Assembly: GCF_021401245.1 (NCBI RefSeq)
Contig: NZ_JACBFY010000003.1
Span: 620,001 to 684,000 of the forward strand
Direction of reading: 5' to 3'
DNA from: Pseudacidovorax sp. NFM-22
Lineage (GTDB): Bacteria > Pseudomonadota > Gammaproteobacteria > Burkholderiales > Burkholderiaceae_C
DNA: 64,000 bases
The position numbers and the translations under genes were made by a program. Numbering within the stretch: the first letter of the stretch is position 1; every line of letters begins with the position of its first letter. Positions 23,878 to 51,068 of the stretch are shown piece after piece. The notes below the pieces were generated by a model. It was not told where the DNA came from and ran no database searches. It saw only the letters and a program-made list of their open reading frames with translations.

Positions 23878-24068
23878 GGACACCCGTTAGCCGATGAATG
23901 ACTGCTGCTAGGAAACGCGGACAGTGGAAAGCTCAGCAATACGGGCAAGATTGCTTCGTTGTACTCTGTTGGGGCCTCAAGAGCATCAAGCTTTCCGAGT
24001 CCATCGGCCATTGCAAGTGCGGATGTGGCAGTATTTCGGGCTCCAACAAGAGCACGAGGGACAGGCGA

Positions 24069-25238
24069 GTGATCTCAATAGAAGACATCTACAACCAAGA
24101 CATCAATTTCCTGTTCGGATCAGGGGCCTCCTTCGGCCTACTTCCGACTCTCCAATTGCAGCTGCAGACGGGCGTTGAAGATCGTCGCTACAGCGTCGAA
24201 GAACTGGCAACCAAGTTCGAGCGCGAGAAGGACCGGCGGTTAATCCCGCTGTTCATGTACTACTACGCTAACTGCATCCGACCGGCGGAAATGCTACGGC
24301 TGGACGCTGTGACCGCCGAGCCTGGCGCAACGGTCATCAAAAACTACCGCACCTTCCTGCTCACGGCGCTGGAGATGGTGAAGCGACGAAAGGCGATGGA
24401 CAGGCGCTGCAACGTGTTTACAACCAACTACGACGGCTGTTTTCCCCTCGTGGCCGACGCTCTCATCAAGGACGGCAACATTGACTTCGTACTGAACGAC
24501 GGCGCTAGAGGGTTTATGCGTCGCATCGTGCAGGCCCGGAACTTCGGGGCCTACCTCTGCCACGCCGGCGTCTTCGGGCGCTACCAGAGTAGTGTCCCGC
24601 AGCTAAACCTAATCCATCTGCACGGTTCGGTCTACTGGCGCAAGCTGGAGGCGGCGATCCAGGTCGACTACGACCTGAAGGAGAGGGAGGACTTGCTGGA
24701 TGCCGACGCTCGGGCGCTGCTGCAGCCGTTTTCGGATGCGCTGAACAACCCGGCGGCCACGCTCGACGATTTGCCCGACACAGGTTTCACCGACGACACG
24801 CTGAATGCGTTCTGGGCCAAGTACGAGCTAATACCCATCGTGAATCCGACCAAGTGGAAGTTCCACGAGACGGTCTATGAGGAGCACTACTATCAGATGC
24901 TACGCCTGCTCAGCTATGAGCTGGAGAAGCCCAACGCTGTCCTGATCACCTTCGGCTTCTCGTTCGCTGACGAGCACATCCTCAACCTCGTCATACGTTC
25001 GCTGTCGAACCCGCGGCTGCAAGTGTTCATCTGCTGCTTCAACAGCTTAGAACGTACATCGATGGAGCAGAAGTTCAAGGGCTACCGTAGCGTCAAGTGC
25101 CTGCAGCTCGACGATGGAGTGATGAACTTCACCGCCTTCAACGAGAAGGTCCTGGCGTGGCCGGATGCGACAGACCTGGCGGCCACGGCTCCCGCCGCTG
25201 CCCACGCCGAAGCCGGCGGCGCTGGAGTGCCGGCATGA
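24069..25238 (+). CDS. SIR2-family NADase, effector of a SIR2-HerA defence system
   Basis: Probable NAD-degrading effector of an anti-phage system. From the GTG at 24069 (preceded by GAGGGA) it has 389 residues. SIR2 motifs: NFLFGSGAS at 13-21 (NAD binding), TTNYD at 118-122, LIHLHGS at 181-187 with the likely catalytic His, and ITFGFSFADEH near 328. The frame is open upstream to 23898 but that part lacks family features. Its stop overlaps the herA start (ATGA). In known SIR2-HerA (Nezha-type) systems the two proteins form one large complex that depletes NAD on infection; that role is inferred here. Confidence 0.85.
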   Translation: MISIEDIYNQDINFLFGSGASFGLLPTLQLQLQTGVEDRRYSVEELATKFEREKDRRLIPLFMYYYANCIRPAEMLRLDAVTAEPGATVIKNYRTFLLTALEMVKRRKAMDRRCNVFTTNYDGCFPLVADALIKDGNIDFVLNDGARGFMRRIVQARNFGAYLCHAGVFGRYQSSVPQLNLIHLHGSVYWRKLEAAIQVDYDLKEREDLLDADARALLQPFSDALNNPAATLDDLPDTGFTDDTLNAFWAKYELIPIVNPTKWKFHETVYEEHYYQMLRLLSYELEKPNAVLITFGFSFADEHILNLVIRSLSNPRLQVFICCFNSLERTSMEQKFKGYRSVKCLQLDDGVMNFTAFNEKVLAWPDATDLAATAPAAAHAEAGGAGVPA

Positions 25239-27028
25239 GCATCCGGGTCGGCGAGGTCATAGCGGTCCATGGCACCAAGGTGGTTCTGAAGATCGACGAG
25301 CAGTCAAGCAAGGAGACCCTGTTCTTCGAGGGCGACAAGTACAAGGGGGTGTCGATCCGCGAGTACCTGTCAATTCAGCGGGGCTTCCGCGACATCATTT
25401 GCATAGTTGAAGGCGAGTTTCTGGACGAGGGCCGCACGGAGCTGCAGGACGGAAAGCAGACCTTCGTGCGCAAGGTCGAGGCTAGGCCGATAGGCTACTT
25501 CGACCGTGCCGGCTTTACACAGGGCATCAAGTACCTGCCCATGATCCAAGATGCGGCCTACCTGATGCCTGAGGAGAAGATCAGGTCGATCTTCGATCGC
25601 AAGACTGATGGCGACTTTAGGATCGGGCGGATGCTCAAGGAAGAGATTGCTGTCGGGCTGCCGTGGCGGCGCCTGTTCAACAGCCACGTTGGCATCTTCG
25701 GCAACACCGGCAGCGGCAAGTCCAACACCCTGGCCAAGCTGTACACGGTGCTCTTCGACAAGAAGCTGCCGCTGATCGAAGGGAAGAGCCGGTTCGTCAT
25801 CCTGGATTTCAACGGCGAGTACGGCGGCGAGCAACTGGCACCGGCGGCCAGCAAGACGGTCTACCAACTCTCTACCCTGACCAACCCCGACCCGAACGAT
25901 CCGAAGGCGAGATTTCCCCTGGCACCGCAGGAATTCTGGGAGCTCGAGACTATGGCACTAATGTTCCAGGCCACCGCCAACACGCAGCGCCCCTTTCTCA
26001 ACAGGGTCATCACAGGTAAGCAACGCTTCGGTGTGAACCTCGCGTCACTGGCAGCGTATGCCAAAGCCAAGTTTCGGCAGTCATTCTGCGCCGGAGAGGT
26101 TAAACCGGCGACGCTAGACCTGATGCGCACGGTGGCCAAGCGGATGGGAAACCAGGACATACTCAATATGTTGGGCCACGTCACCTGGTATCGCAATGGC
26201 CGTTTCAATTATCACGGCGCGTTCATCGACCCGGACGGCGCCCAGTACAACGCACATATCGCGCCCATCGTGGATACGCTGGATGCCCAGGGCCTCGATG
26301 ACTTCGATCAGCTCGTGCTGCGGGTCAATCTTCAGCTGATCTCCGATTTGAACGCGGGCTACGTGCAGTTCGAGCACATCCAACCGCTACTCAAGCGCGT
26401 AGAGTCGTCGCTTGCTAGCCTGCGCAAGGTGCTGACTATCTCGGACGTTCCTCCCGTCGAGCGACTGCTGACGGTCATCTCAATGCGACGCTGCAACAAC
26501 GAGATCAAGAAGGTCCTCCCGCTGCTGTTCGCCAAACACTTCTACAACAGCCACAAGACCACGGTTGCCAACCCGCCAGACCGCACAATCCACCTCATCG
26601 TCGATGAGGCGCACAACATCCTGTCTGACCAGTCGGCGCGCGAGGCAGAGAGCTGGAAGGACTACCGGCTGGAGCAATTCGAGGAAATCATCAAGGAGGG
26701 CCGCAAGTTCGGCATGTTCATCACAATCGCGAGCCAGCGACCAGCCGACATCTCTCCCACCATCGTCTCGCAGCTACATAACTTCTTCATCCACAGGCTG
26801 GTAAATGACCGGGATCTCTATCTTGTCGAGAACACCATCTCGACGCTGGACGCTTTGTCTCGCAGCCTCATTCCAGGCCTCTCCCAGGGCTGCTGCGTCG
26901 TAACCGGCACGGCCTTCGAGTTGCCGATGGTGATCCAGGTGGATCGCCTGCCCAGCCACAAGCAGCCAGCCAGCGAGGACGTCGACCTCGAGAGGCTCTG
27001 GAGCACGCCGCCTGAGGCCGCTCACTGA
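25235..27028 (+). CDS. HerA-like hexameric ATPase of the SIR2-HerA system
   Basis: A 597-residue HerA/FtsK-type ATPase. A beta-barrel-like N-terminal domain (SIRVGEVIAVHGTKVVLKID) is followed by Walker A GNTGSGKS at 156-163, Walker B LIVDEAH near 455, and the sensor/Arg-finger stretch FITIASQRPADISPTIVSQLHNFF near 495. The true start is the ATG at 25235, overlapping the SIR2 stop; the longer frame from 25097 lies inside the SIR2 gene. HerA partners assemble with the SIR2 effector and usually provide ATP- or DNA-dependent control. Confidence 0.88.
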   Translation: MSIRVGEVIAVHGTKVVLKIDEQSSKETLFFEGDKYKGVSIREYLSIQRGFRDIICIVEGEFLDEGRTELQDGKQTFVRKVEARPIGYFDRAGFTQGIKYLPMIQDAAYLMPEEKIRSIFDRKTDGDFRIGRMLKEEIAVGLPWRRLFNSHVGIFGNTGSGKSNTLAKLYTVLFDKKLPLIEGKSRFVILDFNGEYGGEQLAPAASKTVYQLSTLTNPDPNDPKARFPLAPQEFWELETMALMFQATANTQRPFLNRVITGKQRFGVNLASLAAYAKAKFRQSFCAGEVKPATLDLMRTVAKRMGNQDILNMLGHVTWYRNGRFNYHGAFIDPDGAQYNAHIAPIVDTLDAQGLDDFDQLVLRVNLQLISDLNAGYVQFEHIQPLLKRVESSLASLRKVLTISDVPPVERLLTVISMRRCNNEIKKVLPLLFAKHFYNSHKTTVANPPDRTIHLIVDEAHNILSDQSAREAESWKDYRLEQFEEIIKEGRKFGMFITIASQRPADISPTIVSQLHNFFIHRLVNDRDLYLVENTISTLDALSRSLIPGLSQGCCVVTGTAFELPMVIQVDRLPSHKQPASEDVDLERLWSTPPEAAH

Positions 27029-27040
27029 GAAGCAGTCACC

Positions 27041-27466
27041 ATGGCCGATCCCGCCATCACGTTCAGCGTTGTCGGCGATGAACTGCACATGTACTACCAG
27101 ACCCGCGACAGGGATGACCGGGTCTATCGTCGGTTCGAAAAGGGGAAGGACTTGCTGGTCAGACGAACCTTCCGGCTGTTCAAGCAGTTTCTTGTCGACC
27201 CACTCGTGGCCGCGCTACATGCGGATGCAGGTGGCCGACAGGAACTGGAGTTCGGCGAACACGAGCCGATCCTGACTTTTGTCGTGGCGCGCGCGGTCGA
27301 CAGCCTGTACTTCGAGTTCGATGACAGCGTTCTGGAAGTAGGCATACCGGTCCTGCTGGAACGTGCTGCCCGACCAACATGGAGATGGTTCACTGCCGAG
27401 GAGAGAGTTTCGGTCAGGACAGTTCAGGCAACAGGACTTGCAGCAGCCCCGGTCGGCGTTCATTGA
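27041..27466 (+). CDS. Unknown small protein, third gene of the SIR2-HerA operon
   Basis: A 141-residue protein not recognised. ATG at 27041 lies 12 bases after herA on the same strand, so it is probably in the same operon. The first 110 residues look like a compact, mixed charged domain (FSVVGDELHMYYQTRDRDDRVYRRF, LTFVVARAVDSLYFEFDDSVLEVG). The last 25 residues (VRTVQATGLAAAPVGVH) look unlike the rest, and the frame may have shifted there. No signal peptide or membrane segment. It could be an added regulator or immunity-like factor, but nothing in the sequence proves that. Confidence 0.6.
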   Translation: MADPAITFSVVGDELHMYYQTRDRDDRVYRRFEKGKDLLVRRTFRLFKQFLVDPLVAALHADAGGRQELEFGEHEPILTFVVARAVDSLYFEFDDSVLEVGIPVLLERAARPTWRWFTAEERVSVRTVQATGLAAAPVGVH

Positions 27467-37215: not shown

Positions 37216-39012
37216 TCACTCGTCCTCGTCTTCTCCGGCGTCGGCAACAGGGATGTCTCCGTCCTGGACAGGCTCGTCGGCGACTGGCGCTTGCTTCAGT
37301 AGTTCGTCGTGCATTGCCTTGACCATGCCGCTGAGCGCCTCGACGCCTGGACGAAAAGACTCCTCCAGCAGAACGTGACGTTTGACGCCGAATTCCAGGA
37401 TGCTGCAGTCGTCAGGCGGCACCCAGTTGTCCGGAATCGACTCGGTCGCGACCATGGTTTGGCCCGAATGAACTCGCTCCAGGATGGTGTCGAGCATCCG
37501 CCCGAGGCTCACAGGATCCTGACCCGACTGTTGCGGCGTATCGACGATGAACGGAAAGATGGGGCCGTCGCCGTACTTCGAGTGAGCCGACAGCAACGCA
37601 AGGTGGTTTGCCAATACTGCGCGTGGCGCGTAGCTCCCGCTTGCGTTCGGCGAGCGCGTGCCAATCGTCACCTTCGCAGCGATTTCGACCTTGGCGATGT
37701 CGAGCATATCTGCGTAGGAAATCAGGTCTTCCTTAAACGATGCACGAATCCGCTTCTCTCGTTCCTTGTCGGCCAAATCTTTGAGCCTGCTGTCGTACTC
37801 CTGAAACTCTTCAGTGGCAATGTCAAGTTCCGCCGCGAGATCGCGGCGTGTGACGTCGTAGGCATCCTTGAGTACGGACAGGCTTTTTGCGACCACTACG
37901 TCAGCCACCGGTCGGCCGTCGCGCTGAACCGTCAGAGACTCGTTCAGCGAGCGTAGGCGCTGTGCGACAGCATTGAGCTTGGTCTGGAGGGCCACCTCAT
38001 CACCTTGCAGCTTGTCTCTTGCCGTTTGCAACCGAATGACCACTTCGTGGATGTCGTGCGCGTCGGTGGCAAGCGCTTGTCGTGCGTGGAAAGTCGCCGT
38101 ATGGACGTGCGAGCAAGTGGGGCAGACCAGTGACTCGTCGTCTGAATAGTCGGCGAGGAAAGCTTGGTCCTCGACGAGTTCACGTTCGCTGGCCAGAGCC
38201 ATGTTCAACTCGGCCGTGAGCTGCTGCCGCTTCTGAGCAAGCTTGAATAGGTCCGCGCGTACCTCGTCTTGTTCGTCGCGCAACTTCTTCGTCAAATCCG
38301 ACACCTCGCGAAGCTCGTGAGCGAATTGGCTTTCGTCGAGAGTGGTCGTTTCCGCTGGGAGCATTTCCACCACACGCTTGTAGGAAGTCTCCTGTAGCTT
38401 CAAGTGCACCTTAGCGGTCTTGAGCTGAACGGCCGACCGCTCTCGATGCACCTGGGCGTCAAGGTAGGCCGCGGTCTTCAACCCGGTAAATGACGAGAAG
38501 AGCGGCGTTTGCCACTTCACGAACTGGCCCAGGTACGGGAAGGTCGCCCATTTCGGGCCCCATCCGCTGTCTTGGTCGATGTAGAACGGAAGCATGGCGT
38601 AGTCGGGCCCAGCCAAGCCAAACTCACCTTCCTCCTTGCGCTGAAGCATTAGCTTGAAGCCGAAGGTCTCAGAGAAGAACTCACTCCACTTCGAGCCGGA
38701 CTCGGTCGCAAATACAAGAAGTCCCAGGTCATCGAATGCGGCGCGCTTGCGACCTTGCCGCAGGAAGATGAACTTCCCCAACGAGCCAACAGACAGCTCA
38801 AGAGCTGCGACCACGTTCGCGTCGAACTCGCCCGCGGCACGTCTTGCCGGTTCGCAGCCGAGCGCCCAAACTAGGTGCTTCAGGACACGCGACTTGCCTG
38901 TGCCGTTATTGCCCGCCAGCAGGTTGCGTCGAGGATGAAATTTCAGCTGCCTCGCGCTCGCGTCTCTTTCGGACAGCAGCCAAAGCTCGTTGAATACCAC
39001 GATGGGGCTCAT
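37216..39012 (-). CDS. Rad50/SMC-like ATPase with zinc hook, partner of a DUF4297 nuclease
   Basis: A 598-residue SMC-like ATPase, probably the sensor or motor of a defence operon. The N-terminal ATPase half has Walker A GNNGTGKS at 34-41. Coiled-coil segments flank a CPTC zinc-hook motif near residue 294. The C-terminal half has Walker B FPFIVDTPQQ near 489, and no classic LSGG signature is clear. The acidic tail ends AGEDEDE. Its start overlaps the nuclease stop by 4 bases. Two-gene pairs of a Cap4/DUF4297 nuclease and an SMC ATPase are known in the Lamassu family; ABC-3C systems use related ATPases. Which group this belongs to is unsettled. Confidence 0.8.
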   Translation of the reverse strand: MSPIVVFNELWLLSERDASARQLKFHPRRNLLAGNNGTGKSRVLKHLVWALGCEPARRAAGEFDANVVAALELSVGSLGKFIFLRQGRKRAAFDDLGLLVFATESGSKWSEFFSETFGFKLMLQRKEEGEFGLAGPDYAMLPFYIDQDSGWGPKWATFPYLGQFVKWQTPLFSSFTGLKTAAYLDAQVHRERSAVQLKTAKVHLKLQETSYKRVVEMLPAETTTLDESQFAHELREVSDLTKKLRDEQDEVRADLFKLAQKRQQLTAELNMALASERELVEDQAFLADYSDDESLVCPTCSHVHTATFHARQALATDAHDIHEVVIRLQTARDKLQGDEVALQTKLNAVAQRLRSLNESLTVQRDGRPVADVVVAKSLSVLKDAYDVTRRDLAAELDIATEEFQEYDSRLKDLADKEREKRIRASFKEDLISYADMLDIAKVEIAAKVTIGTRSPNASGSYAPRAVLANHLALLSAHSKYGDGPIFPFIVDTPQQSGQDPVSLGRMLDTILERVHSGQTMVATESIPDNWVPPDDCSILEFGVKRHVLLEESFRPGVEALSGMVKAMHDELLKQAPVADEPVQDGDIPVADAGEDEDE

Positions 39013-40286
39013 GATGCTGCCTCAGGTTGCGAACCAGCCGCAGCAGTTGAAAGGTGTCGGAGTGGTTGTGCATTTTTGAGAGTCATCGCCATCAGGCAGT
39101 AGAGGAAGCCATCGGAGTACAGGTGTGAGTCCCGAACCTTCATCATGCGCAGGTCCGCCAGCCACGCCGGCAGTCGAGCCTTGAGGTCTCCGTTGGCTTT
39201 GTATTGGTTGTTCTTGATGTATAGGTCGACCAGCACTTGGGCAGTGAGCCAGACCACGCTGGCGCGATTGGTGACTTCCGCGCAAGCGGTGTTCACCGCA
39301 GCCTCCATCTCCTGGACCATCTCGTAGTCAGCCACCTCGGCATTCAGCCGCGCGATGACCTGCGCGACCAAGTCTTGTGTTCGAACGTGGGTGTCGTTGG
39401 CTGCAGCGAAGTATTGAGTCACCTCAGCCCTCGTAACAGCGCGCTCAAGCAGGCCCGCGAAGTCCTTGGCGTAGGCTCGCTTGCCGGCTCGCTGCTGCAC
39501 ATACGACGCTACGAGACAGATGGCAATGAACGGGGCATTGACTTGCGGCTCAATTTTCTTGAGCTGACACAGCTCCACCAACTCGCCAATGGCAAACTTG
39601 TGGGCTTCCTCAGTGGGACAGTTGGTCACAGTCAAGCGGAAGCCATCAAGGGCAATCGCTTCGTTTTCAGGCACTTCAAGTTGCTTGCGAAAAGCCTCTT
39701 GGACTTTGGCGACTGATGCGGCTGGCAAGTCGCATAGCTCTACTGCGGTCACCGTTTCGTTTTGGTCATCGTCCCCGACTCCAACGTAGAACGGTGCGTT
39801 CGAAGCGAAGATGAGTTCCGGAGGCCGCGTGAGCGCAGAAAAGCGCTGGCGGTGGAAATACAGTTTGGCCAGCGGGGACTGTCCCGGCTTGCGCGAGCGA
39901 AGGAGAATCCGTCGCTTCGGTGCGGCCGTTGCGCCTGTCTCGTCGATGTTCGCCTGCACTAGTTTTGCCGCAGGTGCCGGCGGTGGTGCCAGCAGTCCAT
40001 TCAAGGTCCAGTGGTGCGTCGATTCGTTCTTCTTGAGCTGGATGAACGTGACGCGCGTGGGCTGCTTGGACGAGTCAAGCACCGCTATGTCCTGCTGCCA
40101 TTCAAGTACGACGGCATAGTCCTCGCCGGTCGCATGTGCCTTTAGGGTCTCAAGCACAGCTTGCCAGACCTGAAAGCTGAACCCACGGACAGCATGCTGT
40201 CCTCCAGTCTCGTCTCCGCTCCTGTCTTTGAACAAGGAGAGAACGTCCTGAAGGCTCGGTTCGCCGCCTGAATTCGCGTTCGTCAT
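39009..40286 (-). CDS. DUF4297/Cap4-like nuclease, putative defence effector
   Basis: A 425-residue protein with an N-terminal restriction-endonuclease-like domain. It shows the DUF4297-type entry motif DETGGQHAVRGFSFQVWQAV near 26, a strand with acidic residues (AVVLEWQQDIAVL), and FIQLKK near 90, which fits the (E/Q)xK end of a PD-(D/E)xK site. The rest (about 150-425) is helical and probably a sensor or partner-binding region. It is the first gene of an operon with the SMC-like ATPase. The assignment rests on motif reading only. Confidence 0.72.
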   Translation of the reverse strand: MTNANSGGEPSLQDVLSLFKDRSGDETGGQHAVRGFSFQVWQAVLETLKAHATGEDYAVVLEWQQDIAVLDSSKQPTRVTFIQLKKNESTHHWTLNGLLAPPPAPAAKLVQANIDETGATAAPKRRILLRSRKPGQSPLAKLYFHRQRFSALTRPPELIFASNAPFYVGVGDDDQNETVTAVELCDLPAASVAKVQEAFRKQLEVPENEAIALDGFRLTVTNCPTEEAHKFAIGELVELCQLKKIEPQVNAPFIAICLVASYVQQRAGKRAYAKDFAGLLERAVTRAEVTQYFAAANDTHVRTQDLVAQVIARLNAEVADYEMVQEMEAAVNTACAEVTNRASVVWLTAQVLVDLYIKNNQYKANGDLKARLPAWLADLRMMKVRDSHLYSDGFLYCLMAMTLKNAQPLRHLSTAAAGSQPEAAS

Positions 40287-44164: not shown

Positions 44165-44240
44165 GTGTCCGCTTCTGGCCGGAACCGGCCGGTCGGGAGG
44201 ATAGCCCGGAGGTCTGCTTCCGCTGCACAGCCGTCATTCC
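44165..44240. repeat. Long interspersed repeat copy
   Basis: Begins GTGTCCGCTTCTGGCCG (44165-44181, identical to 40326) and continues with AGGATAGCCCG and GCTTCCGCTGCA, the blocks also seen at 37168-37197. It lies between divergent genes. Confidence 0.7.
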
Positions 44241-44319
44241 TAAGGCTCGGGAAAGTGCCAGCTCTGAATCATTGCGAAATGTTTCCGATTGAGGTAGCTT
44301 GCCTCCTGAGGAGAGCGCC

Positions 44320-45183
44320 ATGATGCGGAGACGAGGAAGAGCGAGTACGGCCGAAGACCTGATGGACTTGGTCGCGATGCTGCCCTGGTGGGCCGGGATC
44401 GGGCTGGCCGTGCTGAGCTATTTCTTGCTGCATGCGGTGGCGAGTTCGCCGCTGCCCCTCGCTAAGACGCCGCAGGACATCGGCCAGCTTGCCACCAGCG
44501 GCATCTGGCGCGGCTTGGCCTACGCAGGCCAATACATCGTTCCCTTCATTTGCGTCATGGGGGCACTCGCCTCGGCGATTCGCCGCCGTGAACGCCGGAC
44601 GCTGATCGGCTCTGTGGCTCGTAGTGATGCTGCGGACGCGCTGGATGGAATGGGTTGGAGGGAGTTCGAACTGCTCGTGGGTGAGGGCTTTCGGCAGCAT
44701 GGCTACGCGGTTTCGGAAGTTGGTGGCGGCGGGCCTGACGGCGGAATCGACCTCGTCCTCATCAAGGCCAGCGAGAAGTTTCTGGTCCAGTGCAAGCAAT
44801 GGAGAGCGTTCAAGGTCGGAGTGACCGTGGTTCGCGAGCTGTACGGTGTCATGGCGGCGCGCGGCGCGGCAGGTGGTTTCGTCGTGACGTCTGGGCGGTT
44901 TACCGAGGAGGCCAAGGCTTTTGCCAGTGGTCGCAACATCCGCCTGATCGACGGCCCCGCGTTGCTTCACTTGATTCGCCGAGGGCGGTCCATTTCGCCA
45001 GCTGTGTCCGAGCCTGCACATGGTGAGGCTGTCGCTGCTTCTTCCGCTCGCGGTGGGGCGCCCTTGTGTCCGGTCTGCTCGAAAGCAATGCTTCGCCGTG
45101 TCGCGAAGCGCGGAGCGTCGGCCGGGAATGCGTTCTGGGGATGCTCTGGCTATCCTGGCTGCAAAGGCACGCGGTCGATATGA
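44320..45183 (+). CDS. Membrane-anchored Mrr-like restriction endonuclease with zinc finger
   Basis: A 287-residue protein, start ATG 44320 with GAGGAG at 44308-44313. Two N-terminal membrane helices (about 25-45 and 68-85) are followed by an Mrr-type PD-(D/E)xK domain. This has REFELLVGEGFRQHGYAV, GGPDGGIDLVL with the catalytic Asp, and FLVQCKQW with the QxK. A C-terminal topoisomerase-type C4 zinc finger follows (CPVCSKAMLRR, then FWGCSGYPGCKGTRSI). It probably cleaves foreign or modified DNA at the membrane. It lies 50 bases before hxsB on the same strand. Confidence 0.82.
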   Translation: MMRRRGRASTAEDLMDLVAMLPWWAGIGLAVLSYFLLHAVASSPLPLAKTPQDIGQLATSGIWRGLAYAGQYIVPFICVMGALASAIRRRERRTLIGSVARSDAADALDGMGWREFELLVGEGFRQHGYAVSEVGGGGPDGGIDLVLIKASEKFLVQCKQWRAFKVGVTVVRELYGVMAARGAAGGFVVTSGRFTEEAKAFASGRNIRLIDGPALLHLIRRGRSISPAVSEPAHGEAVAASSARGGAPLCPVCSKAMLRRVAKRGASAGNAFWGCSGYPGCKGTRSI

Positions 45184-45233
45184 GGCGGCTGCGGGCAGCC
45201 TGTTTTCCGCAGGGTGCTGCGAGGGCATAGGCC

Positions 45234-46673
45234 GTGGCGTACGTGACCCAGGTACAGCCCTTTCGCAGTCGTGTGCTGCCGGATGGCTTTGTCGTGGCCA
45301 CAGCGCGCAGTGGTGACCACGCATTATTCTCCGCTGAGGAGTTCGATCAGTTCCAGCAGTCTCCGGCGAGCTTGCCGTTGCGACGGCAGGCCGAACTGCG
45401 TGCGCGGTTCCTGCTTGGTGACAGTGCGCCGTCGGCGGGCATGCGCCGGTTGATGAACTCGCGGGTCGCGGCGAAGCGAGAGACGGTCTCCGCGGGGCCT
45501 GCGTTGCACATCATCGTGCCGACCTTGCAATGTGCCCACTCCTGCCGCTATTGCCAGGTCAGTCGTTCGCTGCATGACCAGGGCCATACCCTCTCGACGG
45601 CTGACCTGGACGCCGCCTGCGACACGATCTTCGAAAGCCCGGCATCCACGTTGACCGTGGAGTTTCAGGGCGGGGATCCGCTGCTGCGCTTCGACCTGAT
45701 CGAGCGCGCCATCCTGCGCATCCAGGCTCGCAACGCGTTCGAGGGACGCCGCATCCGCTTTGTCGTCGCCTCGACGCTGCATCAGCTCGATGCTGCGATG
45801 TGCGATTTCTTCAAGACCCATGGGGTCTACCTGTCCACCAGCATCGACGGCCCGCGCGATCTGCACAACCGCAACCGGCCGATTCCCGGGCGCGATGCAT
45901 ACGAGCGGACGTTGACCGGTGTCGATCTGGCGCGAAGGCACATCGGGGTGGACGCAGTGGCAGCGTTGATGACCACGACCAAGGCGTCACTCGATCAGCC
46001 GGAAGCCATCGTCGACGAGTACGTTCGGCTGGGATTCGGCGAGATCTTTCTGCGGCCGCTGAGCAGTTATGGTTTCGCCAAACGCAACCAGGCTCTGCTG
46101 GGCTACTCGGTGCAGGACTTTTTCCGCTTCTACCAGCGAGGTCTGCAGCGCGTGCTGCATTGGAATCAGCAAGGCGTGGTGATCCGCGAGGTCTATGCGT
46201 CGATCCTGCTCAACAAGATGCTGTCCACCTTCGACGCCGGCTATGTGGACCTGCAGAGCCCGACCAGCGCCGGCGCCAGCGTGCTGGTCTACAACTATGA
46301 CGGCTACATCTATCCCAGTGACGAGGCGCGCATGATGGCCGAGACTGGCGACACCTCGCTGCGCATGGGGCGGATCGGAACGCCGCTCGAGGCGCTCCTG
46401 GTTTCGCCCGCACGGGCCGAGCTCGTGAAGGCCAGCAAGGTGGACGGCATGGCTGCGTGCCAGGCTTGCCCCTACAGCCTCTTCTGTGCCCCGAATCCCG
46501 TGGATGCGCAGGCGCAGTTCGGCACGCCCTTTGTCCCCCCACATAACACCGAGCATTGCCAACGTCACCTGGGCATGTTCGATGCCATGTTCATGGCGGT
46601 GCGTACGGCGGATGAGACCTTGCTGGACCTTTTCCACGCGTGGGCACGCCCGACGGCGGAGACCCAGGTCTGA
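45234..46673 (+). CDS. hxsB: His-Xaa-Ser system radical SAM maturase HxsB
   Basis: A 479-residue radical S-adenosylmethionine enzyme. The 4Fe-4S motif is C100-x3-C104-x2-C107 (LQCAHSCRYCQVSR). GGDP near 155 is the SAM-binding motif. A C-terminal SPASM-like region has further cysteines (MAACQACPYSLFCAPN, HCQRH). It likely modifies the His-Xaa-Ser repeat protein encoded two genes on. GTG at 45234 with GAGGG upstream is the start. The stop overlaps the hxsC start (TGATG). Confidence 0.88.
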   Translation: MAYVTQVQPFRSRVLPDGFVVATARSGDHALFSAEEFDQFQQSPASLPLRRQAELRARFLLGDSAPSAGMRRLMNSRVAAKRETVSAGPALHIIVPTLQCAHSCRYCQVSRSLHDQGHTLSTADLDAACDTIFESPASTLTVEFQGGDPLLRFDLIERAILRIQARNAFEGRRIRFVVASTLHQLDAAMCDFFKTHGVYLSTSIDGPRDLHNRNRPIPGRDAYERTLTGVDLARRHIGVDAVAALMTTTKASLDQPEAIVDEYVRLGFGEIFLRPLSSYGFAKRNQALLGYSVQDFFRFYQRGLQRVLHWNQQGVVIREVYASILLNKMLSTFDAGYVDLQSPTSAGASVLVYNYDGYIYPSDEARMMAETGDTSLRMGRIGTPLEALLVSPARAELVKASKVDGMAACQACPYSLFCAPNPVDAQAQFGTPFVPPHNTEHCQRHLGMFDAMFMAVRTADETLLDLFHAWARPTAETQV

Positions 46674-47806
46674 TGCGCAAGCTTAGGGCCACGTTCCAGC
46701 CGGGATGCGAAGTGCTCGTGCATCGGGTGGTCGGCTATGCCGAGGTCGGCGCCGAATGGACGCCTCACCTTCGCTTTCTGGTGAAGGTCGAGTCCAAGGA
46801 GGAGCGGGCTGGCGTCGAAGCGCTGAAAGATGCGGCGCTTGCCAACGTCGCCTGGGTTCAAAGTGCGGCGCTTCAGGACGGTGACGTCGTTGTGCCGCAT
46901 CCCGATAGGGACGAGGCCGTCGTGCTGATGCGGGAGTCGGACACGCACCACGCGTTGTTCATGACCAACCGGTGCAACAGCTACTGTCTGATGTGCTCGC
47001 AGCCGCCCACGCCGGGAGACGACAGTTGGCTGGTGGAGGAGGCCGTCGACGCCATCCGCCATCTGCGCCATTCGCCGGACGTGCTCGGATTGACCGGTGG
47101 CGAGCCTCTGCTGTTAGGGGCTGGACTCCGGCGGGTGCTCGATGCCGTCGCCCAACACCATCCACGGACCCGGGTGGAGGTGTTGACCAACGGGCGGCTG
47201 TTTGCCGATCCGAAGGTGGTGTCGACGATTCTTGACGGGCTGTCGGTGCCGGTCCGATGGCTGGTTCCGCTCTATGGTCATGCCGACTTCGTGCATGACT
47301 TCGTGGTCCAGGCGCATGGCGCCTATGACGAGACGTTGGCTGGACTGCTGGCGCTTCAGGCGAATTGTCAGGCCATTCAGCTTCGCATCGTGCTGATCGA
47401 ACCTGTGTTGCAGGTCCTGCCGGAGCTGGCAGGATTCATTGGCCGTAACTTGCCTTTTGTTCACGAAGTTGCCTTGATGGGGTGTGAGCCGACTGGATTC
47501 GCGCTGGCCAACCGCGCCTTGTGCGAGGTGGATCTGAGCGCGTGGGGCAGTACGCTGGAGCAGGCGGCACGCGTGCTCCGGCGCCATGCCGTTCCTCATT
47601 TATTCATGAATGCGCCGCTCTGCGCGCTACCCCGGACGCTGTGGCCCGTTGCCAGTCGGAGCATCTCCGATTGGAAGAACGTCTACGCCAGCGAGTGCGA
47701 CCGGTGCGCCGTCAAGGCCAGATGCGCGGGGCTGTTCGCGTGGCACGAGAAAGGCTGGAAGCCCGCGCCACTGAAAGCCATCGAGGCAGGGGAAGTCATC
47801 GCATGA
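46673..47806 (+). CDS. hxsC: His-Xaa-Ser system radical SAM maturase HxsC
   Basis: A second radical SAM enzyme of the Hxs system, 377 residues. Cluster motif C101-x3-C105-x2-C108 (TNRCNSYCLMCSQPP), SAM motif LTGGEPLLLG, and C-terminal cysteines (SECDRCAVKARCAGLFAW). It follows hxsB directly and overlaps hxsA by 4 bases (ATGA at 47803). HxsB and HxsC are thought to modify HxsA post-translationally; the reaction is not known. Confidence 0.88.
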   Translation: MRKLRATFQPGCEVLVHRVVGYAEVGAEWTPHLRFLVKVESKEERAGVEALKDAALANVAWVQSAALQDGDVVVPHPDRDEAVVLMRESDTHHALFMTNRCNSYCLMCSQPPTPGDDSWLVEEAVDAIRHLRHSPDVLGLTGGEPLLLGAGLRRVLDAVAQHHPRTRVEVLTNGRLFADPKVVSTILDGLSVPVRWLVPLYGHADFVHDFVVQAHGAYDETLAGLLALQANCQAIQLRIVLIEPVLQVLPELAGFIGRNLPFVHEVALMGCEPTGFALANRALCEVDLSAWGSTLEQAARVLRRHAVPHLFMNAPLCALPRTLWPVASRSISDWKNVYASECDRCAVKARCAGLFAWHEKGWKPAPLKAIEAGEVIA

Positions 47807-48468
47807 GCAAGTTCATCCGCAATCTCTCGCTGTTCGTTGCCAGTATTCCTCTGATGACCACCAAGAGTCTGTCAGTGGTTCCCGGCCCCAAAGCGGAGAT
47901 CGAGCCGCTGGACGCGACCGGGGCCGTTCCGCTGCGGCCATTGAACCTGGAAGCCGACAACCTGTTTGCGGGTCATCGCTCCCATTCCAGTCATCGGTCC
48001 CACTCGAGTCACAGCTCGCACTATTCGGGTTCCGGCGGCGGCAGTTCGAGCTATCGTGCTCCGGCCTATGTGGCTCCGAGTCCTGCACTCGCTCCGTCTT
48101 ATGTGCAGCCTGCACCAGCGACAGCACCCACGCCTTCGCGGGCTTCATCGCAGTACGAAGCAACTCCCGGGAACGCGACTAGTCGATTCTCAGCTCCCGG
48201 GTCCGCCGCGCGACCTGGGCAGACTGTCCCCGGCAACTCCGCGGCGGCGCGGGAGGAACTGACCCATTCGGAAAAGCTACGTCTCCAGATCATGCGCGTG
48301 CAGATCAAGCTCAGGGGGCTGGGGCTGTATGACGGACCGGTGGATGGGGCGATGAACGAAGACACGCGACAGGCGCTGCGCTATTTCCAGGACATCAAGG
48401 GCTTGCAGAAGACCGGCACGATGACGACGCCTACGCTCAACGCCATGGGCATTCCGGCAGTCAACTAG
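47803..48468 (+). CDS. hxsA: His-Xaa-Ser repeat protein HxsA
   Basis: Presumed substrate of HxsB/HxsC, 221 residues. A hydrophobic N-terminal leader suggests export. Six consecutive His-Xaa-Ser units fill residues 58-75 (HRSHSSHRSHSSHSSHYS). A Pro/Ser/Ala-rich linker follows. The C-terminal 65 residues form a peptidoglycan-binding domain (LRLQIMRVQIKLRGLGLYDGPVDGAMNEDTRQALRYFQ). Likely anchored in the cell wall. HxsD, normally a fourth member, is not found next to it. Confidence 0.9.
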   Translation: MSKFIRNLSLFVASIPLMTTKSLSVVPGPKAEIEPLDATGAVPLRPLNLEADNLFAGHRSHSSHRSHSSHSSHYSGSGGGSSSYRAPAYVAPSPALAPSYVQPAPATAPTPSRASSQYEATPGNATSRFSAPGSAARPGQTVPGNSAAAREELTHSEKLRLQIMRVQIKLRGLGLYDGPVDGAMNEDTRQALRYFQDIKGLQKTGTMTTPTLNAMGIPAVN

Positions 48469-48531
48469 CTTCAGGATGTTTGGCCGAGAGCGAGAGATGG
48501 ATGTCTCTTCATGGTCCTTGCCGATGAGCCG

Positions 48532-48858
48532 CTAGAACGGGATGTCGTCATCCATGTCGTCGAACGAAGCCGCGGGAGCGGCTGTCTGACCGGTGGGGCC
48601 GGGCGCTTTCGCAGGGGCAGGGCTTGCAGGCCGGGGAAAGGGCGCGGCAGGCGAGGGCGGGACCTCGACGCCGGCGCCATCGAGGGCAGCCTTCAAGGCC
48701 TCCTCCACGGCATCGATGCGCTGCTTGCAGACCTTATAAGCACTCACCGATTCAGTGACGATGGTCAGCAGGTCGTCAATGTTGGGTTCGTCCTGCGTGC
48801 GCAGGGTCTCGGCATGGCGTTGCAGCACGCCGTACGCTTCCCTAAAGCTGGTCGTCAT
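48532..48858 (-). CDS. Exonuclease VII small-subunit-like protein with SSB-type C-terminal tip
   Basis: A 108-residue protein. Residues 4-60 resemble XseB (FREAYGVLQRHAETLRTQDEP, then SVSAYKVCKQRIDAVEEAL), two helices that bind the large subunit. A Pro/Ala linker (about 65-97) follows and the protein ends SFDDMDDDIPF. This last stretch copies the SSB C-terminal tip (DDDIPF in E. coli SSB) that recruits DNA-processing proteins. Normal XseB (about 80 aa) has no such tail. It lies 17 bases after the xseA-like gene on the same strand. Confidence 0.8.
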   Translation of the reverse strand: MTTSFREAYGVLQRHAETLRTQDEPNIDDLLTIVTESVSAYKVCKQRIDAVEEALKAALDGAGVEVPPSPAAPFPRPASPAPAKAPGPTGQTAAPAASFDDMDDDIPF

Positions 48859-48875
48859 GGGCTTGTCTTTCGTGT

Positions 48876-50588
48876 CTAGCCGGCCGGCTGTGCGTTGATC
48901 CGGCCGTCTCTGAACTGGATGTCGATGGTGGTGAGTGCCTGGGCCTGGACGGTGTCGGTGACGGGTTGGCCGTCGGGCGCGCGGACGATGGCGAAGCCGC
49001 GGCTGAGCGTCTTCTCCGGACCCTGGCCCGTTACTTCGCGCATGAGGGCTTCGGCACCAGCCCGTGCCTGTTGAACCGAACCCTGCGCGCGCTCTGCCAG
49101 GCGCTGCATTTGGTCAGTCACAGACTGTCGCGTGGTTCGTACCGTCGCGCCGCCTTCGGCCGTGATTGCCTGGAAGCTCAGATCTGTCCTGCTGCGTGCA
49201 GCGCCGACCTGGTCCTGTGAGTGGACGCGGATGTCGTTCATCAGCGCGGGCACCTGCTGCCGCGCCGAGGACACATGCCGTGCTGCTTCGGTGTTGGTCT
49301 GGTGTAGGAGGGCCGTGCTGCTCACCCTGGCGTCATGGATCTGGTGCAGCGCGGCGGCCTGCAGTTGGTGCAGGGTTTCGGCACTGAACTGTCGGGCGCG
49401 GCTCAAATGGGTCCTGGCATCCGCCCGGACCTGCGCGTCGTAGCGCTCCGTCTCGCTCTTCGCGCGTTGGGCGATGCGGGAAGCCGCGGCGAAGATTTCC
49501 TGTGCGGCGCGGCTGGCCTCGCGCGCGCGTCGCAGGATGTGCTGCTCGATGCCCGCGATCACCTTGCTGGGGGTGTCGAAGCGGGTGTGGGCGACCTCGT
49601 CGGGCAGCGTGTTGTCGCGTTCATGACCGATCCCGGTGAGGACCGGGATGTCCAGATCACAGATGAAGCGAACCAGGTCGTAGTCGTTGAGCCAAGCCAG
49701 GTCGTTGACAGCGCCGCCTCCTCGGATGAGCGCGATGGCGTCGGGTGGGGTGGACTTGTTCGCTTGTTCGAGCGCCATTGCCATGGCCGAAACGATCTCG
49801 CGGGCGGCACCTTCGCCCTGGAAGCGGCTGTGGACGTAGATGAAGCGGCAGATGCCGAAGCGTTCCAGCCGCTCGGCCTCTTTGCGGAAGTCGCCGAGGC
49901 CCGCGCCGTCTTCGGGGGCGACCACGACGATTGTTCGGTAGTCCCAGGGCGGCGCCAGGCGGCGGTTCTGGTCGAAGGCGCCTTCCTTTTGCAGCCGATC
50001 CCGGATCTCCTTCTTGCGCGCTTCCAGGTCGCCCAGCGTGTAGTCGGGATCGATGGCATCGATGTCGAGGCTGAAGCCGTACTGGGCGTTGAAGACCGGC
50101 CGGGCACGCACCAGAAGCTTGATGCCGGCACCGATGACGGCGCCTGTGGCCTCCTCGAACTCTGGGAGGATGCGTGAGGCGGTTGAACTCCAGATGACGC
50201 CGCGGGCTTTGGCGATGGGCTGGCCGCTACTGTCGCGTTCGGACAGCTCAAGGTAGACGTGGCCGCGTGCGCGGGCTTCGACCACCTCGACCAGGGTCCA
50301 GACGCCCTTGTTGAAGGCCTGGGCGACTGCGTTGGCGACCCCGCCCAACAGGTGCGAGAGGGAGATGCCTTTGCCGGCGGCGAGGGCGAGCGCGCCCGCG
50401 GTTGTCGGAAGCGCCAGTTCTGCTGATGAAGCGGACGTGCTGACCGATGCGGGCAACCACTGGGCGAATACCGTCAGGTCACGTCCGTCTTCGACGTACC
50501 AGCGCTTGACCGCACCGTCGAAGCGCGCGCCAAGCGACTTGGCGGCGTCCTTCTGGGCGAAGGGGACGTTGAGGTAGTGCCGGGGCAT
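48876..50588 (-). CDS. xseA: Exonuclease VII large subunit with N-terminal DUF5710-like domain
   Basis: Large subunit of an exonuclease that trims single-stranded DNA, 570 residues from ATG 50588 (normal XseA about 450). Residues 1-46 (MPRHYLNVPFAQKDAAKSLG, KRWYVEDGRDLTVFAQWLP) form a DUF5710-like domain typical of plasmid and conjugative-element enzymes. An OB-fold (about 75-190) and the catalytic region follow, with RGGGAVNDL near 288 and TGIGHERDNTLPDEVAHTR near 315. Then come a long coiled coil and the usual C-terminal ending (RGFAIVRAPDGQPVTD). Probably an island-borne copy. The partner small subunit is next to it. Confidence 0.88.
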   Translation of the reverse strand: MPRHYLNVPFAQKDAAKSLGARFDGAVKRWYVEDGRDLTVFAQWLPASVSTSASSAELALPTTAGALALAAGKGISLSHLLGGVANAVAQAFNKGVWTLVEVVEARARGHVYLELSERDSSGQPIAKARGVIWSSTASRILPEFEEATGAVIGAGIKLLVRARPVFNAQYGFSLDIDAIDPDYTLGDLEARKKEIRDRLQKEGAFDQNRRLAPPWDYRTIVVVAPEDGAGLGDFRKEAERLERFGICRFIYVHSRFQGEGAAREIVSAMAMALEQANKSTPPDAIALIRGGGAVNDLAWLNDYDLVRFICDLDIPVLTGIGHERDNTLPDEVAHTRFDTPSKVIAGIEQHILRRAREASRAAQEIFAAASRIAQRAKSETERYDAQVRADARTHLSRARQFSAETLHQLQAAALHQIHDARVSSTALLHQTNTEAARHVSSARQQVPALMNDIRVHSQDQVGAARSRTDLSFQAITAEGGATVRTTRQSVTDQMQRLAERAQGSVQQARAGAEALMREVTGQGPEKTLSRGFAIVRAPDGQPVTDTVQAQALTTIDIQFRDGRINAQPAG

Positions 50589-51068
50589 GATTTGCAATGG
50601 TTTCCTGTGCGGAGAATTGTTGCAGACCGTGCCTTCTCAGGAACGCTGAAGACGGGTGACGTGCTTGCCGGCAGTTCCTGCCGTCGGGCTCTACGGGCTT
50701 CGCCCCAGGCCGACGCGGTCGTCCTGGCCGTTTGGCTTCGATCTCTCACGCCTTCCGGCTGTCTCTGTGCGCCAGCCCGCGCGCTCAGCTCGCCTCCACG
50801 ACACTGGTGGTGGGGCTGGCTTGCTGGTTCCCTTCATCCTTGCGCACCGTTCTGGGGTCACCCATAGCCTGACTCCACTCACCATCGGCCGTGGTCGTCA
50901 AGGTGGGTTGGGCGGACGCTTACTGATAGGTCGTGGTGAACAGCCGAGAGCGATATGCCGAGCCGTTGTCGATGATCATTCCAGCACGCATGTGATCAAT
51001 CGATTGGGCACTCACCCAGGCGTCTTTATGGCACTTACGATGAGCCAGTCAGGTTCACTCGCACCAGC
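50589..51068. other. Likely right-hand junction region, no gene seen
   Basis: About 480 bases upstream of the exonuclease genes without a convincing frame. It probably holds their promoter and leader (minus strand) and the unseen edge of the island. No copy of the guaA end was found. Confidence 0.4.

Follow-up and report, generated by a model that had tools for sequence, protein, structure and literature searches.

An SSB-like C-terminal tip on the small subunit of an accessory exonuclease VII in a Pseudacidovorax defence island

SSB is seen as a hub, whose tail recruits genome-maintenance proteins. How exonuclease VII (ExoVII) is recruited is, to our knowledge, poorly understood. In Pseudacidovorax sp. 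NFM-22 an ExoVII small subunit ends like SSB, raising the question of what such a tip does on a nuclease. We analysed 64,000 nucleotides around this locus (contig NZ_JACBFY010000003.1, positions 620,001 to 684,000), hereafter called the window. The original prediction had described an island-borne XseB-like protein of 108 aa with a Pro/Ala linker and an SSB-like tip, paired with a large subunit carrying an extra N-terminal DUF5710, and had suggested a role in DNA transfer or under phage attack.

The accessory ExoVII and its island

The genes, domains and defence loci recognized in the window were:

48532..48858, minus strand: accessory xseB, ExoVII small subunit, 108 aa (NF045605 match; two-helix structure model)
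48676..48858, minus strand: helical core of XseB, residues 1-61 (NF045605 over residues 3-60; fold like the 1vp7 and 8txr small subunits)
48565..48675, minus strand: Pro/Ala-rich disordered linker of XseB, residues 62-98 (low pLDDT, without secondary structure in the model)
48535..48564, minus strand: SSB-like C-terminal tip FDDMDDDIPF, residues 99-108 of XseB (identical to the end of the host SSB)
48876..50588, minus strand: accessory xseA, ExoVII large subunit, 570 aa from ATG (profile matches; model matches 8txr)
50451..50582, minus strand: DUF5710 of XseA, residues 3-46 (PF18974, E 1.7e-19; pLDDT about 83-89 over residues 1-40)
50052..50363, minus strand: OB fold of XseA, residues 76-179 (PF13742, E 2e-9)
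48888..49976, minus strand: ExoVII nuclease and coiled-coil region of XseA, residues 205-567 (PF02601, E 1.3e-59)
23898-27466, plus strand: SIR2 and HerA defence genes, then a short frame weakly like SduA (PADLOC)
37216-40286, minus strand: LmuB-type ATPase and LmuA/Cap4-type nuclease, a Lamassu-like pair (Pfam, PADLOC)

The xseB gene lies downstream of xseA, separated from it by 17 bases, and a promoter and terminator scan gave no signal exceeding that of shuffled sequences. The housekeeping xseA and xseB of the same genome sit at separate other loci. The accessory XseA matched TIGR00237 with 246.5 bits (cut-off 180), and its structure model matched 8txr, the H238A mutant of E. coli ExoVII, by fold (E 8.7e-22). 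When aligned to this structure, D233, R289, H322 and D325 corresponded to D155, R205, H238 and D241 of E. coli, which we take to be the catalytic residues of ExoVII, and none of the four varied in an alignment of the window with 43 relatives (44 rows). XseA is, by its profiles and alignment, an intact-looking nuclease with an added N-terminal DUF5710, the extra domain that had been predicted.

The small subunit was recognized by NF045605 (xseB_Acin_var; E 5.3e-30, 103.4 bits, cut-off 40), confirming the predicted XseB-like protein with its linker and tip. It fell below the cut-offs of TIGR01280 (E 4.7e-4) and of PF02609, Exonuc_VII_S (E 0.018, 15.5 bits, cut-off 24 bits). Because of this weak score, a PF02609 search of the genome gave the housekeeping gene only. 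The XseB model had two helices (residues 5-21 and 27-61), with coil after them, and its fold search placed 1vp7 and 8txr in the top three, with TM-scores by target of 0.75 and 0.81, respectively, at an E of about 1. SSB models matched the tail only (best E 0.0017, residues 61-108). Neither these models nor the structure model gave an SSB OB-fold domain, the body being two helices, so the protein does not align better to SSB than to XseB.

The island seems to start at an integrase (21550), after guaB- and guaA-like genes recognized by sight. From 21550 to 48468 another 27 genes are predicted, ten of which were scanned with Pfam and eight with PADLOC. Besides the defence loci listed above, an Mrr-type endonuclease was found. 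The description of the ExoVII as island-borne was supported. The suggested role in DNA transfer found no support: the island genes scanned coded for integrases, defence proteins and a hydrolase, and the HerA gene alone matched a coupling protein, weakly. No att pair of direct repeats was seen at the island end among 20 of the 23 repeat families. With PADLOC, XseA matched no defence model and XseB matched only BrxC, unconvincingly (E 4.6e-4). Beside the ExoVII genes, on the plus strand (45234-48468), we recognized by sight two adjacent radical-SAM-like genes and a His-Ser-rich repeat protein, presumably a peptide-modifying system.

The ExoVII module was present in three of the 15 genomes of the window's genus, its own included, with flanks matching partly. 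The stretch 44216-50860 is common to the window and one relative (L005) at 93%.

The tip in the host genome and across relatives

XseB carries a free acidic C-terminal peptide with a final Pro-Phe, as does the host SSB (XseB C-terminal end: ASFDDMDDDIPF). Its last ten residues are identical to those of the main SSB of the host, which likewise has a lead-in rich in Pro and Ala; the genome's second SSB-domain protein lacks such a tip. The codon pattern DD[I/V]PF-stop occurs at only two sites in the 6.4-Mb genome, ssb and the accessory xseB, with none in the reversed control. Across 60 genomes of the family it occurred at 70 sites in 58 genomes (reversed control, two). At about one site per genome, the pattern is close to an SSB signature. 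A recent gene fusion with ssb, or a recent copy of its end, was rejected, because the tip codons of xseB and ssb differ synonymously.

Short stretches of P0002, used to scan 84,980 species genomes, gave 66 loci; this method finds close relatives, so that distant ones are under-sampled. Together with four plasmid loci and the window, these gave 66 XseB sequences, five loci yielding none. A full tip was found in 47, a weaker tip ending in PF in five and no tip in 13, and one sequence was cut by a contig end. Thus, 52 of the 65 XseB with complete ends carry an SSB-like tip, the window included, although these counts are not independent because of near-duplicate rows (L037/L075, L051/L052, L030/L059). 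The tip classes require the final PF, so that part holds by construction. Position -4, which this criterion does not fix for all, was D or E in 51 of the 52, and position -3 was I, V or L in 47. In the window flank and the relatives' loci, an end of the form [DE][DE][ILVP]PF was found on 34/53 clustered xseB genes versus 1/1116 other predicted genes.

The codons were compared among the six closest sequences (the window and L004-L008), whose 15 pairs are non-independent. Over these pairs, the last six codons had 30 synonymous and no amino-acid differences, the linker (54% identity) 167 and 241, and the core 230 and 58, respectively. Placed by hand on the XseA tree, the last six codons showed six synonymous changes and no amino-acid change. 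Judging from these codons, the tip is fixed by selection and the linker varies almost freely.

A quick tree of XseA (65 rows) required the tip state to change at least eight times, a count that does not distinguish gain from loss. Tipped members were spread throughout, from a Rouxiella on a long branch, the position of which is uncertain, to the window's group, a pattern that would suit an old trait lost several times. The expectation that homologues keep the acidic tip therefore held for most XseB, but not for the 13 tipless ones, which indicate that ExoVII can do without it. No tip was found on 31 housekeeping XseB (30 of 59 matches and the genome's own), and the one housekeeping XseA tested, that of the same genome (L002), lacked DUF5710, in line with the claim that normal ExoVII has neither extra. 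The tip was also absent from all 29 accessory XseB whose XseA lacks DUF5710 (28 distinct sequences, many near-identical and Acinetobacter-type, plus L074). Of the 52 tipped rows, 49 had DUF5710 on the same XseA frame, the exceptions being two loci truncated at contig ends (L062, L067) and the broken L005. The domain was also present in 12 of the 13 tipless rows and so does not require the tip. A Vibrio plasmid XseA of the DUF5710 type adjoins a tipless small protein. Among the ExoVII examined, and as far as their sequences tell, the tip is a selected feature of one accessory branch, that with DUF5710-XseA, 13 members of which lack it.

Tips hidden by frameshifts were looked for in three frames over ~330 bases downstream of 11 tipless and two odd-ended copies, and none was seen. 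A phage origin of the tipped form was considered and set aside, as no relative of P0002 was confirmed in viral contigs; 23 distant viral relatives had neither DUF5710 nor the tip. Four module copies (L005, L013, L071, L076) were broken by a stop, split frames or an interruption, as expected of accessory genes. On a Polaromonas plasmid, the SSB adjoining a tipped ExoVII (L070:14064-14471, minus strand) ends in DDLDDGCPLEF, an altered tip, and the XseB in DDPDDIPF.

Around the relatives no genes other than xseA (at 62 loci) and xseB (at 53) recurred, the next cluster being in eight, and with no conserved neighbourhood the context names no pathway. We scanned 128 immediate neighbour proteins from 38 loci as one set, drawn from 135 proteins of L004-L042 only, minus three from L031 and two each from L033 and L036. 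Among the matches listed, given by family and not by number of proteins (the first 25 of 98 families in one scan, of 105 in the other), some neighbours matched TRIP13 of CBASS, Zorya, Dpd, Iet or AbiD models, and others ordinary metabolic families. The claim is confined to a mobile, defence-rich setting at some loci and does not extend to enrichment.

Possible roles of the tip

The best reading, which we hold with moderate confidence, is that the accessory ExoVII docks via its tip on the partner proteins of SSB. XseB carries a copy of the SSB docking peptide on a flexible linker, and the complex would show many such tips, because ExoVII holds many small subunits (four large and 16 small chains in the E. 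coli entry, PDB 8txr, from which the stoichiometry here is taken). The tip would enter the pocket with which SSB partners, or phage proteins exploiting the host SSB, take up the SSB tip. Candidate SSB partners are RecO, RecG, RecQ-type and DinG-type helicases, PriA and the chi subunit. The nuclease would thereby be placed where SSB-coated single-stranded DNA is processed, and would digest that DNA.

Published excerpts agree with such a use of the peptide. In E. coli, the acidic tip of SSB brings in at least 17 partner proteins (PMC10018359, excerpt), and a change of the last SSB residue, F177C, abolishes DinG binding (PMC11981726, excerpt). PriB with a grafted SSB C-terminal domain stimulated PriA, which suggests that the tail works on a foreign carrier (PMC8509808, excerpt).

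The most likely use would be the degradation of phage replication or recombination intermediates, because the setting is a defence island; the alternative is ordinary repair. The fit between a phage-attack role and the gene neighbourhood is circumstantial. Competition of the accessory ExoVII for SSB partners, or a role as a hub, as originally proposed, is plausible. If docking is true, the selection-fixed tail would make the nuclease complex a natural second hub or a competitor of SSB. ExoVII would then gain a concrete docking route, and loss of one final Phe should abolish docking.

Alternatively, the acidic tip could act inside the complex as a regulator that silences the accessory nuclease, sitting on the OB fold of XseA or in its active site, much as the SSB tail does on the OB folds of SSB, until it is pushed out by single-stranded DNA. 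XseB restrains XseA, and XseA has an OB domain, both in keeping with such a role. Modelling also predicts binding of the tip to the OB domain of SSB (PMC12143593, excerpt). However, an internal regulator would not need a ten-residue match to the host SSB, related XseA in the branch without DUF5710 have a tipless small subunit, and the tip state changes repeatedly on the XseA tree, so we regard internal regulation as fairly unlikely. An accidental, functionless C-terminal extension is the least credible explanation, and a very improbable one. Its absence from 13/65 XseB and the several broken module copies would agree with it, but the tip is found throughout a branch spanning several families, and the codon differences, counted over the same 15 non-independent pairs for tip and linker, speak strongly against it.

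The tip might instead be a decoy or sensor, capturing phage proteins, such as annealing proteins and Orf-type mediators, which take over the host SSB, with inhibition of the captured proteins or local nuclease activity as the immune output. The defence-island location is consistent with this, and the phage-type Orf protein YbcN needs the SSB C-terminus to bind (PMC4118853, excerpt). Responses to phage SSB are reported for several defence systems (PMC12904381 and PMC10732053, excerpts), and TIR, CAP12-type TIR and HerA-like proteins end in the same tip (see below). On the other side, neither ExoVII subunit had a convincing match to a defence model, and some relatives have ordinary metabolic neighbours; we consider a decoy or sensor unlikely.

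From the 60-genome scan we read 49 distinct tip sites of the 70, besides the two of the window genome, and 39 of the 49 were SSB (two by eye or Pfam). From a scan of 274 genomes, we read 40 sites among those listed, in 20 multi-site genomes, which are not a random sample; 21 were SSB by sequence search or Pfam, and a few were cut or chance frames. The tip-pattern scans also found two further tipped XseB (L183, L192). The other tip-bearing proteins, some of which match no model, included:

L184:768-1505 (plus strand), L220:59-1015 (minus strand), L223:79-1029 (minus strand) and L238:2504-3436 (plus strand): stand-alone TIR-domain proteins, ending in FDDDIPF, WDDDIPF or SDDIPF
L181:724-1500, plus strand: CAP12-type TIR protein (PF10137, E 3e-23)
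L179:750-1553, plus strand: deoxyribosyltransferase-like protein (weak Pfam match; TIR-effector model, E 2e-8)
L224:2-1567, plus strand: HerA-like ATPase
L205 and L219 (DUF3127), L182 and L230 (DUF6511): small proteins
L176, L188, L206 and L212: small proteins of unknown function

The TIR domain (PF13676) was found on L184, L220 and L223 with E from 3e-9 to 1e-13. L220 and L238, the latter from a Klebsiella plasmid and ending in SDDIPF, are 56% and 53% identical to L223, respectively, and L184 is more distant. Four of the six TIR-family members with ends read had the tip, and two at 34-39% identity did not. Six plasmid records of the TIR protein were found; the Klebsiella one was read, and four others match it only in part and stop before its end.

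The tip on TIR and other proteins is a lead that supports its reading as a docking tag. More broadly, and only tentatively, SSB-tip mimicry may be something that bacterial immunity and mobile elements use repeatedly. Unrelated effectors (accessory ExoVII and the TIR, CAP12-type TIR, deoxyribosyltransferase-like and HerA-like proteins above) would each have acquired the tip, tethering them to the SSB network on DNA under replication or recombination, the place where a phage first becomes noticeable. Should the tip act alike on the TIR and HerA-like proteins, immune effectors would share a way to watch replication forks.

Comparison with known systems

Among the matches listed from the open PMC literature, with subscription papers outside the scope, neither an ExoVII nor a TIR protein with an SSB tip was described, which agrees with the original statement that no description of the pairing was known. 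The excerpt of the sole DUF5710 paper found (PMC11233732) reports the domain also in plasmid Rep proteins and gives no function.

The accessory ExoVII resembles the housekeeping enzyme (PF02601, PF02609; 8txr and the Bordetella XseB 1vp7) in its two subunits, OB fold, four catalytic positions, long helical region and two-helix small subunit. It differs in the DUF5710 added to XseA and in the linker and SSB tip added to XseB. With the plasmid- or phage-borne accessory ExoVII of the NF045605 type (Acinetobacter, Moraxella and others), it shares an adjacent xseA-xseB pair on mobile DNA, whereas those XseA are without DUF5710 and the XseB short and tipless in all 29 examined.

Like the C-terminus of SSB, the accessory XseB has the acidic stretch, the final Ile-Pro-Phe and the Pro/Ala-rich lead-in, with the last ten residues identical; unlike in SSB, they sit on a nuclease subunit instead of an SSB with its OB fold. 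Exonuclease I and other SSB-interacting nucleases and helicases reach SSB-coated DNA via a pocket for the tip. Those proteins own the pocket, whereas the accessory ExoVII owns the peptide. The nearest engineered counterpart is the PriB-SSBc chimera (PMC8509808, excerpt), which also has an SSB tail on a non-SSB protein but was made in the laboratory, while the join of ExoVII and tip is natural and conserved. Finally, the defence systems with a reported response to phage SSB (PMC12904381 and PMC10732053, excerpts) sense SSB, whereas here a nuclease itself bears the tip.
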